Positions 20,398 to 28,282 of a stretch of DNA of 53,110 nt are shown here, one piece after another (the stretch's first letter is position 1; each line of letters begins with the position of its first letter). Source of the stretch: Syntrophaceae bacterium (lineage in GTDB: Bacteria > Desulfobacterota > Syntrophia > Syntrophales > UBA2185); assembly GCA_003153775.1 (NCBI GenBank), contig PMBI01000041.1:3805-56914 (forward strand). Direction: 5' to 3'. The notes below the pieces were generated by a model, which worked only from the letters and a program-made list of their open reading frames with translations, was not told the DNA's origin and did no database searches. The position numbers were made by a program, and so were the translations under genes.

Positions 20398-21801
20398 ATG
20401 GAAGTATTAGGTATCTTGTTGAGTCTTTTCTTGTTGATGTTCATGGCGTACATGGGCTTTTCCGTTATTTTATTTGCACCTGTGTTCGCCCTCCTTGCAG
20501 CGGCCCTGCAGGGACTGCCGGTCATGCCCTCCTATACGGAGCTGTTTATGGCCAAAGCGGTTGTATATGTAAAATTATTTTTCCCCGTGTTTATGTTAGG
20601 GGCGGTCTTTGGCAAGGTCATGGAAGATACGCTTCTCGCAAAGGGGATATCTCACGCCATCATGGAAAAACTCGGTCATAAACACGCCGTCCTCGCAGTT
20701 GTCCTTTCTTGCGCCATTTTGACGTATGGCGGCGTGAGCCTTTTTGTTGTCGTTTTTGCAGTCTATCCTTTTGCAGCGGCCCTCTTCAGGGAAGCGAATA
20801 TTCCCAAGCGGCTCATTCCGGGATGTATCGCACTCGGCTCATTCACTTTTACTATGGACGCTTTCCCCGGTACGCCGCAGATACAGAACATTATTCCTAC
20901 AAATTTCTATGGAACAAATGCTTATGCGGCGCCGATTGCCGGCATCGTCGGCGGTGTCCTGATTTTCATCATCGGGATGTGGTGGCTCGAATGGCGGAAG
21001 AAGAAGGCGGTGAACAAGGGCGAGGGCTACGGTGAACATACGCTCATGGAGCCCGGTCCCGCTGCCGCCGATATCAAGCTGCCGAAATGGTACGTTGCGG
21101 TTCTGCCGTTGGTTCTGGTCCTGGCTGTCAATTATTACCTGTCACGGGTTTATACCTGGGATCCTGCAATCCTCGCGCCTTTAAGCGGCATGAAGCTTCC
21201 CTTGATGGCACCCGCCGTGAAGAATGTCATCGGCATCTGGGCGCTCGTTATCGGTCTTGTTTTGGGCATCGTTCTGGCACTCGCACTTGGTTTCAAGAAT
21301 ATACCTAAGGACGGCGGATTGCAGAAGGCATTGAATGTCGGCGCCATCGGATCGCTTCTCGCGATCATGAACACGGCTTCCGAAGTTGGTTATGGTAATG
21401 TCATTGCTGCGTTGCCGGGATTCAAATCCATCGCCGCATTCCTTCTCGGAATCAAAATCGGTGGTACGCCCCTCGTCTCCGAAGCGGTTTCGGTTACGAC
21501 CCTTGCAGGCATCACGGGCTCCGCATCGGGAGGTATGTCAATTGCCCTTGACCTTATGTCGAAGGACTGGCTTGCCTGGGCAAACTCCATAGGGATGTCG
21601 CCGGAGATTTTGCACAGAGTTGCATCGATGGCTTCAGGAGGTTGCGATACCATGCCCCATAACGGCGCGGTTATTACGCTGCTCGCGGTGTGTGGTCTGA
21701 CACATAAGACATCTTACATCGATATTTTTGCCATGACGGTAATCAAGACCTCCATGGTTTTTGTGGTCATTGCACTCTACCTTCTCACGGGGATATACTA
21801 A
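20398..21801 (+). CDS. GntP-family permease (gluconate/hydroxy-acid type symporter)
   Basis: Membrane transporter of 467 residues with about 12 hydrophobic segments, a cytoplasmic Lys/Glu-rich loop near 200-220, and conserved features of the gluconate:H+ symporter/ion-transporter superfamily: GFSVILFAPVFALLAA at the start, TYGGVSLFVVVFAVYP, TMDAFPGTPQIQNIIPT and ASGGCDTMPHNGAV near the end. Family members carry gluconate, D-3-hydroxybutyrate, glycerate or similar acids. The next gene is a hydroxyacyl-CoA dehydrogenase, which favours a hydroxy-acid substrate (inference). ATG 20398 follows AAGGAGG with 6 bases spacing. It is probably switched on by the upstream sigma-54 activator through the promoter at 20167. 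Confidence 0.85.
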   Translation: MEVLGILLSLFLLMFMAYMGFSVILFAPVFALLAAALQGLPVMPSYTELFMAKAVVYVKLFFPVFMLGAVFGKVMEDTLLAKGISHAIMEKLGHKHAVLAVVLSCAILTYGGVSLFVVVFAVYPFAAALFREANIPKRLIPGCIALGSFTFTMDAFPGTPQIQNIIPTNFYGTNAYAAPIAGIVGGVLIFIIGMWWLEWRKKKAVNKGEGYGEHTLMEPGPAAADIKLPKWYVAVLPLVLVLAVNYYLSRVYTWDPAILAPLSGMKLPLMAPAVKNVIGIWALVIGLVLGIVLALALGFKNIPKDGGLQKALNVGAIGSLLAIMNTASEVGYGNVIAALPGFKSIAAFLLGIKIGGTPLVSEAVSVTTLAGITGSASGGMSIALDLMSKDWLAWANSIGMSPEILHRVASMASGGCDTMPHNGAVITLLAVCGLTHKTSYIDIFAMTVIKTSMVFVVIALYLLTGIY

Positions 21802-23764: not shown

Positions 23765-23980
23765 TTGAAGATCAAGCCCGACAACCAGAAGATTACGGTC
23801 ATAGCGCTTGTGCTTTATGGACTAATTATGCTGTCCTTAATTTTAATCTATCGCGATTTTCTGATAACGATCACGGCAGTGACGATCATGGCGGTGTTAT
23901 TGGTGCAATATTTTGTGCCGTTGTTAAAAGAGAGAAAAAAAGAGAAGGAAGAAGCTGTTCCACCCAGTGAAAAGGAATAG
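23765..23980 (+). CDS. Small membrane protein of unknown function (71 aa)
   Basis: No family recognised. One or two hydrophobic segments (about 10-28 and 31-52) are flanked by a basic N-terminus (MKIKPDNQK) and a highly charged C-terminal tail rich in Lys and Glu (KERKKEKEEA). The start is TTG 23765 with AGAGG 8 bases upstream, 13 bp after the MaoC stop, so the two are probably translated from one mRNA. Confidence 0.6.
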   Translation: MKIKPDNQKITVIALVLYGLIMLSLILIYRDFLITITAVTIMAVLLVQYFVPLLKERKKEKEEAVPPSEKE

Positions 23981-24235: not shown

Positions 24236-25921
24236 ATGAATTCAGTATACGTTTTAATATTAGGTTTTATTGTCGCTTTCCTGGGTTATCGTGTGTACGC
24301 TAAGTATATCGATACAAAAGTCATGAAGGCTGATCCGAAGAGGGCTACTCCGGCCACTATGTACATGGACGGAGTGGAGTTTATGCCGACCAACAAGAAT
24401 ATTCTTTTCGGTTATCAGTTCAAATCGATTGCAGGTGCCGCGCCGATAATCGGCCCGATTATTGCCATCCAGTGGGGATGGCTGCCCGCGTTGATCTGGA
24501 TACTGGGAGGGGCTTTCTTCATCGGCTGGGTTCATGATTATTCAAGCGCCATGATCGCCATGAGGAATGACGGCGCCTCTTTCGGCGGCTTGAGTCACAA
24601 GCTGATCTCGCCACGGGCAAGAATGATCCTACTCTCATTCGTATATTTTTATCTCCTCCTCATAGCCGGGGCATTCGGCAATGTCGTTGTCAGTACGGCC
24701 ATCGGTCTGAAGGCTTCCCCGATGGCATGGCTGCTTCTTACAATCGGCGGCATTCTGGCAGGACAGATGATTTATCGCTGGAAAAAGGATATAATCCTGA
24801 CGACAGTAGTTACGGTAGCTATCGCATTGCTTGGTATCTATCTGGGGACAATCGCCCCCTCCAACGCTATTTTGGGAGACGAACTCGCGAACAGCCGGTT
24901 CCTATGGGCGGTTGTGGCATTTGTCTTTTGTTACTTCGCGGCCGTTTTGCCCATCTGGAGATTCGCGCTCCCGATTAATTACGTGGCGTCGTATATTGTC
25001 TTTCTTGGCCTTTTCTTCGGAATTATCGGAATCTTCGTACTCCACCCTGATTTTACGCTTCCCGCTTACACTGACTTTACGATCAAAATAGGCCCCATAT
25101 GGCCGATCATGTTTGTGACCATTGCCTGCGGCGCAATATCGGGCTGGCACAGCATAGTGTCCAGTTCAGGTACCGCCCGACAACTGGAGAGTGAAATGGA
25201 TGCCCGTCCCGTTGGGGGCGGTGTTATGTTTGTGGAAATGATGCTTGCCGTGTTCGCCTTGATTATAGCCGGGACTATTTACGCGTCACCCGCCGAATAT
25301 GGAGTGGCTATTGCTAAAGGACCTGGCGCCGTATTCGCAGCCGGTGTATCGAAATTCCTCGGCGTCTTAGGGATGCCGTCGGATGTGGGACGCGCCTACG
25401 GCAGCGTCATGATGATTGTTCTCGCAATCACGATCATGCAGTTGGTCATTCGGTTTATGAGGATTGCGACTTCGGAACTGTTGAGCGATATAAGTCCGAT
25501 ATTTAAGAACGCCCATGTGGGGACTGTTATTGCCAGCGTGCTGGGCATCACAGTCGTCCTGACCGGGTGGTGGCAATATCTGTGGGTGCTCTTTGGTGGG
25601 GCAAATCAGTTGATGGCTTCGCTGGCCCTCATGCTTATTACCGCTTATCTGATGTCCGAGGGCAAGCCGTATGCGTGGGCATTCTACCCGATGATATTCA
25701 TGTTCGTCACCACGATCGCCGCACTTCTATACACTTCCGTTACCCTGCTGCAAAAGGTATTTTCCGGCGCGGTGAAGGGAGAGGCATTAGTTGGAAATAC
25801 TATGATGGGCGTTGTCGGTATCTTCCTCGTGATCGCGGCGCTCACATTGGGCTTTGAAGGACTAAAAGCATTTAAACGTTATCGAAAACTGAGATTGCAA
25901 CCAAAACCGGCTTCCGCGTAG
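24236..25921 (+). CDS. CstA-family carbon-starvation/peptide transporter (short form)
   Basis: Polytopic membrane protein of 561 residues with about 14 to 16 hydrophobic segments. The CstA signature is clear: LGYRVYAKYID near the start, then ATPATMYMDGVEF, FGYQFKSIAGAAPIIGPIIA, WGWLPALIWILGGAFFIG, VHDYSSAMIAMRNDG, and later CGAISGWHSIVSSSGTARQL. E. coli CstA and BtsT (about 700 residues) import peptides or pyruvate; this is the shorter type found in many anaerobes. ATG 24236 has GGAGGG about 6 bases upstream. It is the first gene of a set with an 88-aa protein and two ArsA-type ATPases, an arrangement not needed by the characterised CstA proteins. Confidence 0.92.
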   Translation: MNSVYVLILGFIVAFLGYRVYAKYIDTKVMKADPKRATPATMYMDGVEFMPTNKNILFGYQFKSIAGAAPIIGPIIAIQWGWLPALIWILGGAFFIGWVHDYSSAMIAMRNDGASFGGLSHKLISPRARMILLSFVYFYLLLIAGAFGNVVVSTAIGLKASPMAWLLLTIGGILAGQMIYRWKKDIILTTVVTVAIALLGIYLGTIAPSNAILGDELANSRFLWAVVAFVFCYFAAVLPIWRFALPINYVASYIVFLGLFFGIIGIFVLHPDFTLPAYTDFTIKIGPIWPIMFVTIACGAISGWHSIVSSSGTARQLESEMDARPVGGGVMFVEMMLAVFALIIAGTIYASPAEYGVAIAKGPGAVFAAGVSKFLGVLGMPSDVGRAYGSVMMIVLAITIMQLVIRFMRIATSELLSDISPIFKNAHVGTVIASVLGITVVLTGWWQYLWVLFGGANQLMASLALMLITAYLMSEGKPYAWAFYPMIFMFVTTIAALLYTSVTLLQKVFSGAVKGEALVGNTMMGVVGIFLVIAALTLGFEGLKAFKRYRKLRLQPKPASA

Positions 25922-25932
25922 GATGAGTTATT

Positions 25933-25982
25933 CAGGCGCTCGAATGGTGTTGGGGAAGAAGCTTGACCCATGCGAGCGCCTG
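25933..25982 (+). repeat. Long intercistronic hairpin between cstA and the 88-aa gene
   Basis: CAGGCGCTCG (25933-25942) pairs with CGAGCGCCTG (25973-25982). An inner ATGG/CCAT pair extends the stem after one mismatch. No T-run follows, so it is unlikely to be a strong terminator. It may protect the cstA message or set its level relative to the genes downstream. Confidence 0.6.
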
Positions 25983-26010
25983 CAAAATGTAAAAGAGGAG
26001 ACATAATTTT

Positions 26011-26277
26011 ATGAAAGAGAAGAAGAAGGGGGGATTCTTTAAGGCAGCTAAAGAATTTGCTTACGGTGTTGCCGCTCATGATTCCGCTCGATTTGCTCTG
26101 AAGACGAGAGCAAGCATGGAGCATCTCTTCATCCTGATTACCATGGGAGATATGCTGGGTGTACCCATACTACCTCCCTACTATTCGTTGCGTCTACTGC
26201 CTTATGTGGTGCCACAGATCGCCACGTGGAAGAGACGCATGTTGAGAGAAAAGGATTTGACGGACGCCTTAGCCTGA
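26011..26277 (+). CDS. Unrecognised 88-aa protein between cstA and the ArsA-type ATPases
   Basis: I do not recognise this family. The N-terminus is very basic (MKEKKKGGFFKAAKEF), followed by a mixed helix and then a hydrophobic region at about 36-70 (EHLFILITMGDMLGVPILPP, then YYSLRLLPYVVP). It closes with a basic/acidic tail (WKRRMLREKDLTDALA). The Pro-Pro in the hydrophobic part argues against a simple single transmembrane helix and fits a hairpin or membrane-associated segment. ATG 26011 is preceded by AGAGGAG, 10 bases away. It ends 9 bp before the first ATPase gene. Its place between a transporter and two Get3/ArsA-like ATPases suggests an adaptor or client of the ATPases (inference). 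Confidence 0.75.
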   Translation: MKEKKKGGFFKAAKEFAYGVAAHDSARFALKTRASMEHLFILITMGDMLGVPILPPYYSLRLLPYVVPQIATWKRRMLREKDLTDALA

Positions 26278-26286
26278 AAGAAAGGG

Positions 26287-27276
26287 GTGATTAAGATTTC
26301 ATTAGAGAAGATATTCGACCAGTATCCGGACAGACGTTACATAATGTTCGGCGGGAAGGGCGGCCTCGGGAAAACGACTTTCTCCGCTGCCACGGCATTT
26401 TACCTTGCAAAAAAAGGCAAACGTGTTCTTGTATTCTCGGTAGATCCTCAGGCTTCCCTGAGCGATATATTTAAAGTAAATATCTTCGGGAAGGGGCCAA
26501 CGGAAATTATGCCGAACCTCTTTGCACAGGAGATAGATGCAGACCGCCGCGTGAAGGAGTACCAGCAGGAAATCCGCCAGAAGATTCTTGACAGGTACGG
26601 CATGGATAAAATTCCCGATGAGATCGAGAGCTACATCCAGGCAGCTGCCGCCGAGCCTGCCATGGAAGAGAGCGCCATATTTGATGAGGTCGTTGATATC
26701 GTTGTTACCGGCGGCTATGACTATTACATATACGATCTGGTGCCTCTCGGACATGCCCTCTACTATCTTTCCATGGCCTCAGTATATGACGCCTGGATAG
26801 ACAAGATAACTGGCCTCAGGGAACAGATGCGGGAATATGACCAGGTTGCCGCCGTGATCCGCCGCGAGAAGGAACTCGATGAAGACGCCATTCTCAACGA
26901 ACTTCTGTACATAAAAGAGCGCATCAACAAATCATCAAGCATCCTGACGGATAAGGCAAAGACAGCCTTTTTCTTTGTTCTCACGGCAGAAGAGATGATA
27001 ATCAAGGATACGCAGAAAGCGGCCGAGCTCTTTGCCAAATTCGATGTGCCGTTAAGCGGCTACATTATTAACCGTGTCTTGCCCGCGGACTTGAAAGGCA
27101 AGGGCATTCCCGAATATTTGAAAAATCGTCTCACCATGCAGGAACATTATTTGAAGGTGATCGACGCCACATTCAAGGATCAGATACTGGCCTCCGTGCC
27201 GGAGATGGAACGTGATGTCACAGGACTGCCGATGATCGAGAAAATGGCAAAAGCGATGTTCGGAGATCTCAAATAG
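26287..27276 (+). CDS. ArsA/Get3-family ATPase 1 (switch I Asp retained)
   Basis: P-loop ATPase of the SIMIBI class, about 329 residues, one ArsA domain. The deviant Walker A FGGKGGLGKT has the signature Lys24 (22-30 from the GTG). Switch I reads VDPQASLSD, with catalytic Asp53 kept although the usual DPAHS is altered. Switch II reads DLVPLGHAL (150-158), keeping Asp and Gly-His. ArsA proteins energise arsenite export and Get3 proteins chaperone tail-anchored membrane proteins. Neither an ArsB pump nor the Get3 CxxC zinc pair is evident. The start is uncertain: GTG 26287 overlaps the only ribosome site (AAAGGGGTGAT), whereas the ATT at 26296, ideally spaced, begins the segment conserved with the next gene. 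Confidence 0.88.
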   Translation: MIKISLEKIFDQYPDRRYIMFGGKGGLGKTTFSAATAFYLAKKGKRVLVFSVDPQASLSDIFKVNIFGKGPTEIMPNLFAQEIDADRRVKEYQQEIRQKILDRYGMDKIPDEIESYIQAAAAEPAMEESAIFDEVVDIVVTGGYDYYIYDLVPLGHALYYLSMASVYDAWIDKITGLREQMREYDQVAAVIRREKELDEDAILNELLYIKERINKSSSILTDKAKTAFFFVLTAEEMIIKDTQKAAELFAKFDVPLSGYIINRVLPADLKGKGIPEYLKNRLTMQEHYLKVIDATFKDQILASVPEMERDVTGLPMIEKMAKAMFGDLK

Positions 27277-27298
27277 AACGAATAGAAGGAGTTTGACA

Positions 27299-28282
27299 GT
27301 GGATCAAATCACGCTGGGCATGAAGAAATATTTGGAGAATAACCCCAAATTGAAATATATCTTTTTCGGAGGCAAGGGCGGAGTCGGAAAGACGGTGATG
27401 GCCGGAGCTGCCGCTCTCTGGTCTGCGAAACAGGGGAAAAGAACCTTGCTGGCATCAACAAATCCGGTGCATAGTCTCTCAACTCTCTTTGAGAAAGACG
27501 TCTTCGGAAAGGTTGCGTGTGTCTGCGATGAAGAGAAGTGCTATGCTTTCGAGATCGACACGAAGGATACGATCGAGCGTTCCAAGAAAGAAATCAGAGA
27601 GAAGATCAATTGGTTTCTCAAATTTGCGGATATCACGACAAAGGCAGAGGACTTCATAGAATCGGCCACGATGAATCCTGCGTTTGAGGAGTCCGCCATG
27701 TTCGAGAATATGATGGATATCATGTTCAAGGATGAATACGATTTTTATGTATTCGATACGGCGCCCACTGCAAATGCGAGAAGGCTCTTAGGCATGTCTA
27801 AAGTTTATTCCCTCTGGGTGGATAAGATGCTGAAGAGCAGGGAGGAGGCAAAATCTCTGAGAGAAATGCTTTCTTTTTCCAAGAAAGTGGAGAAGGATCC
27901 TCTCATGGATTATCTTCTGGGCTTCAAGGACAGGATGGCACATGCGAAGGACCTTCTCACCGACGATCAACTTACGGCGTTCTTCTTCGTGACATTGCCG
28001 GAGAGCCTTCCTATCGCCGTTATTACGAGGTTCATCAACTGGTTTCACGAATTCGGGATACCGGTGGGAGGCGTTATAGTGAACGGCGTCATTCAGAAGG
28101 ACCAGGTGGGTCCGGATGCCGTGGAGTTTGTACGGAATCGCGTGCAAATGCAGGATGAACATATGGCGGAGATATGGGAGATTTTTGGAGACAGGGTGAG
28201 GGCTGTCTTGCCGCTCTTCGAGACGGAAGTAAAGGGCGCAAAGATGCTGACGCGGCTTACGGACCACCTTTTTGCGTCTTAA
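27299..28282 (+). CDS. ArsA/Get3-family ATPase 2 (switch I Asp replaced by Asn)
   Basis: Paralogue of the preceding gene, about 327 residues. Walker A FGGKGGVGKT is intact (24-32 from the GTG). Switch I is STNPVHSLS: Asn55 stands where Get3/ArsA have the catalytic Asp (STDPAHS). Switch II is DTAPTANAR, with Gly-His replaced by Ala-Asn. A Cys-x-Cys-x4-Cys cluster (VACVCDEEKC, Cys74/76/81) is present here but absent from copy 1. The protein should bind nucleotide but hydrolyse it poorly, so it may act as the regulatory half of a heterodimer (inference). GTG 27299 has AAGGAG 7 bases upstream; a TTG at 27293 is too close. It ends 13 bp from the convergent dehydrogenase gene. Confidence 0.88.
   Translation: MDQITLGMKKYLENNPKLKYIFFGGKGGVGKTVMAGAAALWSAKQGKRTLLASTNPVHSLSTLFEKDVFGKVACVCDEEKCYAFEIDTKDTIERSKKEIREKINWFLKFADITTKAEDFIESATMNPAFEESAMFENMMDIMFKDEYDFYVFDTAPTANARRLLGMSKVYSLWVDKMLKSREEAKSLREMLSFSKKVEKDPLMDYLLGFKDRMAHAKDLLTDDQLTAFFFVTLPESLPIAVITRFINWFHEFGIPVGGVIVNGVIQKDQVGPDAVEFVRNRVQMQDEHMAEIWEIFGDRVRAVLPLFETEVKGAKMLTRLTDHLFAS

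Follow-up and report, generated by a model that had tools for sequence, protein, structure and literature searches.

Why should a carbon-starvation carrier be encoded together with two ATPases of the ArsA/Get3 type? In the window analyzed here, a 53,110-nucleotide stretch of a Syntrophaceae bacterium genome (assembly GCA_003153775.1, contig PMBI01000041.1, positions 3,805 to 56,914), the carrier gene cstA is followed on the same strand by a gene for an 88-amino-acid (88-aa) protein and by two ATPase genes, arsA1 and arsA2, with gaps of 89, 9 and 16-22 bp (Table 1). Open reading frame (ORF) calls and Pfam matches agree with the first-pass annotation, which was made from the sequence alone, on the positions of these four plus-strand ORFs. 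That annotation took the system to be possibly undescribed, which the literature refutes: CstX has been named, and the operon and adjacent ArsA pairs have been described (Castillo and Saier 2010, PMC2963123). By database mining, these authors identified 26 instances of an arsA homologue accompanying cstA, 24 of them with a CstX of about 90 aa, reported similar trees and co-evolution for CstA, CstX and ArsA, and proposed that ATP hydrolysis by ArsA energizes CstA with CstX as the link (PMC2963123). Adjacent ArsA pairs accompany cstA and cstX in Pyrobaculum arsenaticum and Symbiobacterium thermophilum (PMC2963123). Our search of the open-access literature found no experimental follow-up of cstA-cstX-arsA; only the 2010 paper was relevant. 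The window operon shares with theirs cstA, a cstX of about 90 aa and a single-domain arsA of about 330 aa together, with no ars genes among the ten proteins of the region searched. Because they described such operons, we regard this one as a further example of the cstA-cstX-arsA kind, and its 88-aa protein is, by size and context, their CstX (PMC2963123). What is new is an interpretation of a fixed Asp/Asn asymmetry between the two ATPases, their separation into two clades nearer archaeal Get3, and a second CstX in most genomes with this type of CstX.

Could the neighborhood have arisen by chance? About 85,000 species genomes were scanned with an alignment of the 88-aa protein and its paralogues, and the best 80 loci among 426 relatives were read. 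The query contained neither cstA nor arsA, so the neighborhood was obtained independently of it. Both ATPase genes lie 3' of cstX in 62 of the 63 loci with sufficient downstream sequence, the sole exception to the order cstX-arsA1-arsA2 (L144) being an ORF-calling overlap, and of the 59 loci testable for cstA, 52 have it immediately upstream of cstX in the same orientation. Median gaps among the loci read are 87 bp between cstX and arsA1 and 16 bp between arsA1 and arsA2. Within the order (155 genomes), six other genomes encode close relatives of the small protein, all with cstA before and both ATPase genes after; more distant relatives in the same 155 genomes belong to operons of cstA, a small gene and a single arsA. 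The loci are found in Desulfobacterota and in metagenome-assembled genomes labelled Chloroflexota, Bacillota, Latescibacterota, Planctomycetota and others. No flanking family recurs across loci, the commonest being a generic ABC ATPase family (14 loci), so that the neighbors give no hint of a substrate; no recurrent ars gene was recognized in the flanks, and no DNA-binding regulator is conserved within the unit. As the flanking genes vary, cstA-cstX-arsA1-arsA2 is a self-contained unit. This co-occurrence rules out a chance neighborhood and indicates an association far beyond chance, of genes that are inherited together. The first-pass annotation had read the four genes as one dedicated unit and had proposed to abandon that reading if they did not co-occur elsewhere; conserved co-occurrence supports it strongly.

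A few loci carry additional genes. In one lineage (L126, L135, L138 and relatives), the gap between cstX and arsA1 widens to about 1-1.7 kb and holds two small genes (e.g., L138:6365-6712 and L126:6956-7369) that resemble, by eye, an MNT nucleotidyltransferase/HEPN toxin-antitoxin pair. Just downstream of the unit in eight loci, mostly on the opposite strand, is a gene that by eye is aldehyde:ferredoxin oxidoreductase-like (e.g., L114:8494-10299).

What distinguishes the two ATPases? Both exceed the TIGR00345 cut-off for Get3/ArsA, fall below that of TIGR04291, and are 34% identical to each other. ArsA1 has the P-loop GGKGGLGKTT, the switch I SVDPQASL and the switch II DLVPLGHALYYL, invariant or near-invariant across 73 sequences. 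ArsA2 retains the P-loop GGKGGVGKT and has STNPVHSL as switch I. The signature lysine of the deviant P-loop GKGGxGKT is present in all ArsA1 (73/73) and all ArsA2 (71/71) sequences. At the critical position of switch I, Asp is found in 73/73 ArsA1 and Asn in 71/71 ArsA2, and the same split holds in 19/19 for each ATPase in a second, partly overlapping sequence set. In cstA-cstX operons with only one ArsA, that protein keeps the Asp (SLDPAHNL). Switch II differs as well, with DLVPLGH in ArsA1 versus DTAPTAN in ArsA2. In yeast Get3, Asp57 is essential for hydrolysis and the D57N substitution traps the ATP-bound dimer (PMC12506534). Castillo and Saier remarked, without interpretation, that this Asp "can be substituted only by N" (PMC2963123). 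With Asp fixed in ArsA1 and Asn in ArsA2, the pair therefore resembles a heterodimer with one hydrolytic site. We infer that one of its sites hydrolyzes ATP and the other holds it; in the simplest case, ArsA1 is the predicted hydrolytic subunit and ArsA2 the predicted ATP-holding subunit.

Phylogenetic analysis places each ATPase in one clade (100/99), with the two clades sister to each other (98/94); the pair thus arose by a single ancient duplication. Both clades join archaeal Get3 in the tree, and the lone ArsA encoded by other cstA-cstX operons stands outside this group (100/100, with the root drawn at the midpoint). For structural predictions, a CstX-ArsA1-ArsA2 read-through chain of the relative L129 was modelled, with a mean predicted local distance difference test (pLDDT) score of 71 and a predicted template modelling (pTM) score of 0.62. 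The ATPase halves jointly superpose on the ArsA structure 9nbw (525 residues, 4.0 A, Z 27), the best Foldseek match is closed ArsA (TM 0.76 by target), and Get3 chains head the VIA-align list. The model thus predicts that ArsA1 and ArsA2 come together in the manner of the ArsA halves. CstX is another matter. No confident interface with the ATPases or with CstA was seen in the L129 model or in a CstA-CstX model of the relative L134, as judged from pLDDT alone, without contact or predicted aligned error values. Of the complexes whose prediction the first-pass annotation had proposed as a check, the ArsA1-ArsA2 arrangement was recovered, but CstX was not confidently placed beside the ATPases or CstA.

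Might the pair serve in arsenic resistance, as an arsenite-type export ATPase lying beside cstA by accident? The ATPases do share the Pfam family PF02374 with ArsA, but the window ArsA1 has no cysteine at all, and the metalloid cysteines of ArsA are not aligned in ArsA2 and are not conserved. As the first-pass annotation had noted, there are no ArsB or ArsC neighbors; neither these nor ArsR were seen among ten proteins of the region searched with Pfam and NCBIfam profiles. Linkage to cstA and cstX is moreover conserved across phyla, and another contig of the genome encodes a double-domain ArsA distinct from ArsA1 and ArsA2 (G000:C9:7259-9103, a 664-aa frame). We therefore reject a role in arsenic resistance and consider such an accident extremely improbable.

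The affinity to Get3 raises a second alternative, that an ArsA1/ArsA2 dimer acts as a dedicated insertion chaperone delivering CstX or CstA to the membrane. The ATPases are nearest archaeal Get3 in sequence and tree, Get3 chains come first in the VIA-align comparison, and CstX is small and hydrophobic, all of which speaks for such a role. The zinc CxxC of Get3, however, is found in 0/169 sequences (0/73 ArsA1, 0/71 ArsA2 and 0/25 others), bearing out its reported absence from the window proteins. The hydrophobic stretch of CstX is central and is followed by about 30 residues, and is therefore no tail anchor; a single-client chaperone co-inherited with both its client and a carrier would also be uneconomical. 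The insert that follows switch II contains about one Met, and two archaeal Get3 proteins have 3 and 6 there, at a similar overall hydrophobicity. Given the lack of the zinc motif, the internal position of the CstX stretch and the association of the ATPases with a single transporter, we find a chaperone role unlikely.

What does the carrier itself tell us? The window CstA scores 192 of the 1188 bits set as the PRK15015 cut-off, i.e., far below it, and is about 33% identical to both canonical CstA proteins of its own genome and likewise to a CstA from a single-ArsA operon. It has 13 hydrophobic peaks, and a sequence search of solved structures gave no match. The CstA-CstX read-through chain of L134 was modelled with pLDDT 80 and pTM 0.77, and its CstA matches APC/LeuT-type carriers with Z about 24 over 360-390 residues; the model thus predicts that CstA is a LeuT-fold, ion-coupled secondary carrier. 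By analogy with E. coli CstA, a pyruvate importer that depends on the small partner YbdD (PMC5847655), the window CstA probably transports pyruvate or some other small carboxylate or peptide.

A carrier that is predicted to be complete in itself invites a third alternative, in which the ATPase pair is a nucleotide-sensing regulator, a slow ATP/ADP switch that gates CstA through CstX without powering transport. One site is predicted to be dead, as is typical of switches, and the unit contains no conserved DNA-binding regulator. The sequence data do not separate gating from energizing. In the arsenite pump, a carrier that can also function by itself is driven by ATP, which counts against a purely regulatory role, and we regard that role as rather doubtful.

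The small protein has no Pfam match and nothing better than E 1 among solved structures. Since its score against NCBIfam NF041419 ("cory-CC-star") is 36.4 bits (E 3.9e-9), below the cut-off of 80 bits, it is a distant relative of that family and not a member. Its hydrophobic stretch, at about residues 37-58, includes GDMLGVPILPP. By hand count, CstX of the window type occurs in 42 of 395 sampled genomes of the phylum, and 29 of these 42, the window's genome included, carry another CstX copy at E 1e-8 or lower, which is in tandem in 11 and elsewhere in the genome in 18. The tandem order is cstA-X2-X1-arsA1-arsA2 wherever the contig includes the ATPase genes, X1 being the counterpart of the window cstX. 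In the window's genome, the second copy is unlinked, on another contig (G000:C56:64161-64394; L052:7036-7410), and 53% identical; no conserved neighborhood of the second copy was found in the relatives inspected. An unlinked second CstX contradicts the 2010 statement that there is no CstX without CstA (PMC2963123). Pyrobaculum arsenaticum, an organism with paired ArsA, likewise has two CstX (PMC2963123). Two ATPases may be matched by two CstX; the CstX tree, with few columns and long branches, did not settle a single origin for the second copy. Apparent CstX fusions to a protein of 583-587 aa in three genomes are chance matches to a different, non-CstA membrane protein.

How might the four proteins work together? 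We propose a two-ATPase version of the CstA-CstX-ArsA transport unit, in which CstX links the asymmetric ATPase pair to CstA and hydrolysis at one site drives or gates transport. CstX, small and with a hydrophobic segment, would dock the ATPase dimer on CstA. Binding of ATP would close the ArsA1/ArsA2 dimer, and hydrolysis would occur at the ArsA1 site only, the ArsA2 site keeping its ATP for a structural or timing role. CstA would be driven or gated by this cycle, much as ArsA turns ArsB into an ATP-driven pump. Several observations weigh against this proposal. No ATPase figures in the descriptions of E. coli CstA and BtsT; the first-pass annotation's statement that characterized CstA and BtsT need none is consistent with the literature consulted, with the qualification that E. 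coli CstA requires YbdD (PMC5847655). In seven of the 59 testable loci, cstA is not directly upstream of cstX (nearby in opposite orientation in five, absent from the locus in two), and CstX copies are also found away from cstA. The switch II of ArsA1 is itself changed, from DTAPTGH to DLVPLGH, so the slower of the two sites could be that of ArsA1. The relative placement of ArsA1 and ArsA2 derives from a single covalent chain with a short linker, at a pTM of 0.62 and from a program trained on ArsA, and CstX is of low confidence in both models (block pLDDT 42-71 in L129 and 37-76 in L134). On balance, we give the proposed transport unit an even chance of being correct. A stronger version seems doubtful: ArsA1 and ArsA2 would be obligate partners in a heterodimer, one site hydrolyzing ATP and the other permanently bound to it, and together with X1 and X2 they would make a secondary pyruvate-type LeuT-fold carrier ATP-driven or ATP-gated, converting it into a pump.

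Table 1. Positions in the window of the four operon genes and of the two switch I codons
Feature	Position	Strand	Basis
cstA, 561-aa membrane carrier of a divergent CstA subfamily	24236..25921	+	PF02554 E 5.5e-139
cstX (X1), 88 aa, candidate membrane-associated coupling protein	26011..26277	+	size and context; NF041419 below cut-off
arsA1, 329-aa single-domain Get3/ArsA-type ATPase, GTG start	26287..27276	+	PF02374 E 2.7e-71
arsA2, second Get3/ArsA-type ATPase of about 327 aa	27299..28282 (ORF opens at TTG 27293)	+	PF02374 E 3.1e-65
GAT codon, ArsA1 Asp53, counterpart of yeast Get3 catalytic Asp57	26443..26445	+	Asp in 73/73
AAT codon, ArsA2 Asn57 (numbered from TTG 27293), natural counterpart of Get3 D57N	27461..27463	+	Asn in 71/71

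The start of arsA2 is probably GTG 27299 rather than TTG 27293, because the former better fits the ribosome-binding site AAGGAG at 27286-27291, seven bases ahead. Two other membrane proteins are encoded upstream of the operon. One is a 467-aa transporter (20398-21801) with no Pfam match and a weak GntP match (E 0.0018), whose gene adjoins that of a 3-hydroxyacyl-CoA dehydrogenase; the other, of 71 aa (23765-23980), lies between the gene for a MaoC-like dehydratase and cstA and has no convincing family.

Why would such a unit matter? If an ArsA/Get3-type ATPase does power or gate a LeuT-fold carrier, this would be a second route, besides ArsAB, from secondary to primary transporter. The natural D-to-N subunit offers a ready-made dissection of two nucleotide sites, and the spread of the unit over anaerobic syntrophs suggests relevance to the uptake or export of small acids at low energy. 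A proposal now 15 years old becomes directly testable through two clear predictions, a heterodimer and a single active site.

Among known systems, the closest by description is Cluster 15 of Castillo and Saier, with its adjacent ArsA pairs; gene set, ArsA pair and lack of cstY are alike. Compared with their operons, the window type has new host lineages and, in most genomes, a second, often unlinked CstX. E. coli CstA-YbdD (PMC5847655) also combines a CstA-family carrier with a small partner, but that importer has no ATPase, and the window CstA is far from the canonical proteins of its own genome (about 33% identity). BagA/BagB of M. tuberculosis (Get3-like A/B, PDB 6bs3) are likewise a pair of Get3-like ATPases, crystallized together; the window ATPases score 51.5 and 43.6 bits or less against NCBIfam cut-offs of 400 and 521. 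Archaeal Get3/TRC40 (PDB 3ug6, 3zq6) are, in sequence and in the tree, the nearest relatives with a solved structure, with P-loop and signature lysine kept, whereas the window pair lacks CxxC, is expected to form a heterodimer rather than a homodimer, has one site without the catalytic Asp and is tied to cstA and cstX. ArsA of the ArsAB arsenite pump (PDB 1f48, 9nbw) shares with the window pair two non-identical ArsA units, a predicted common arrangement and an adjacent carrier; the window pair, in contrast, consists of two separate chains, with no metalloid cysteines and no ars genes.

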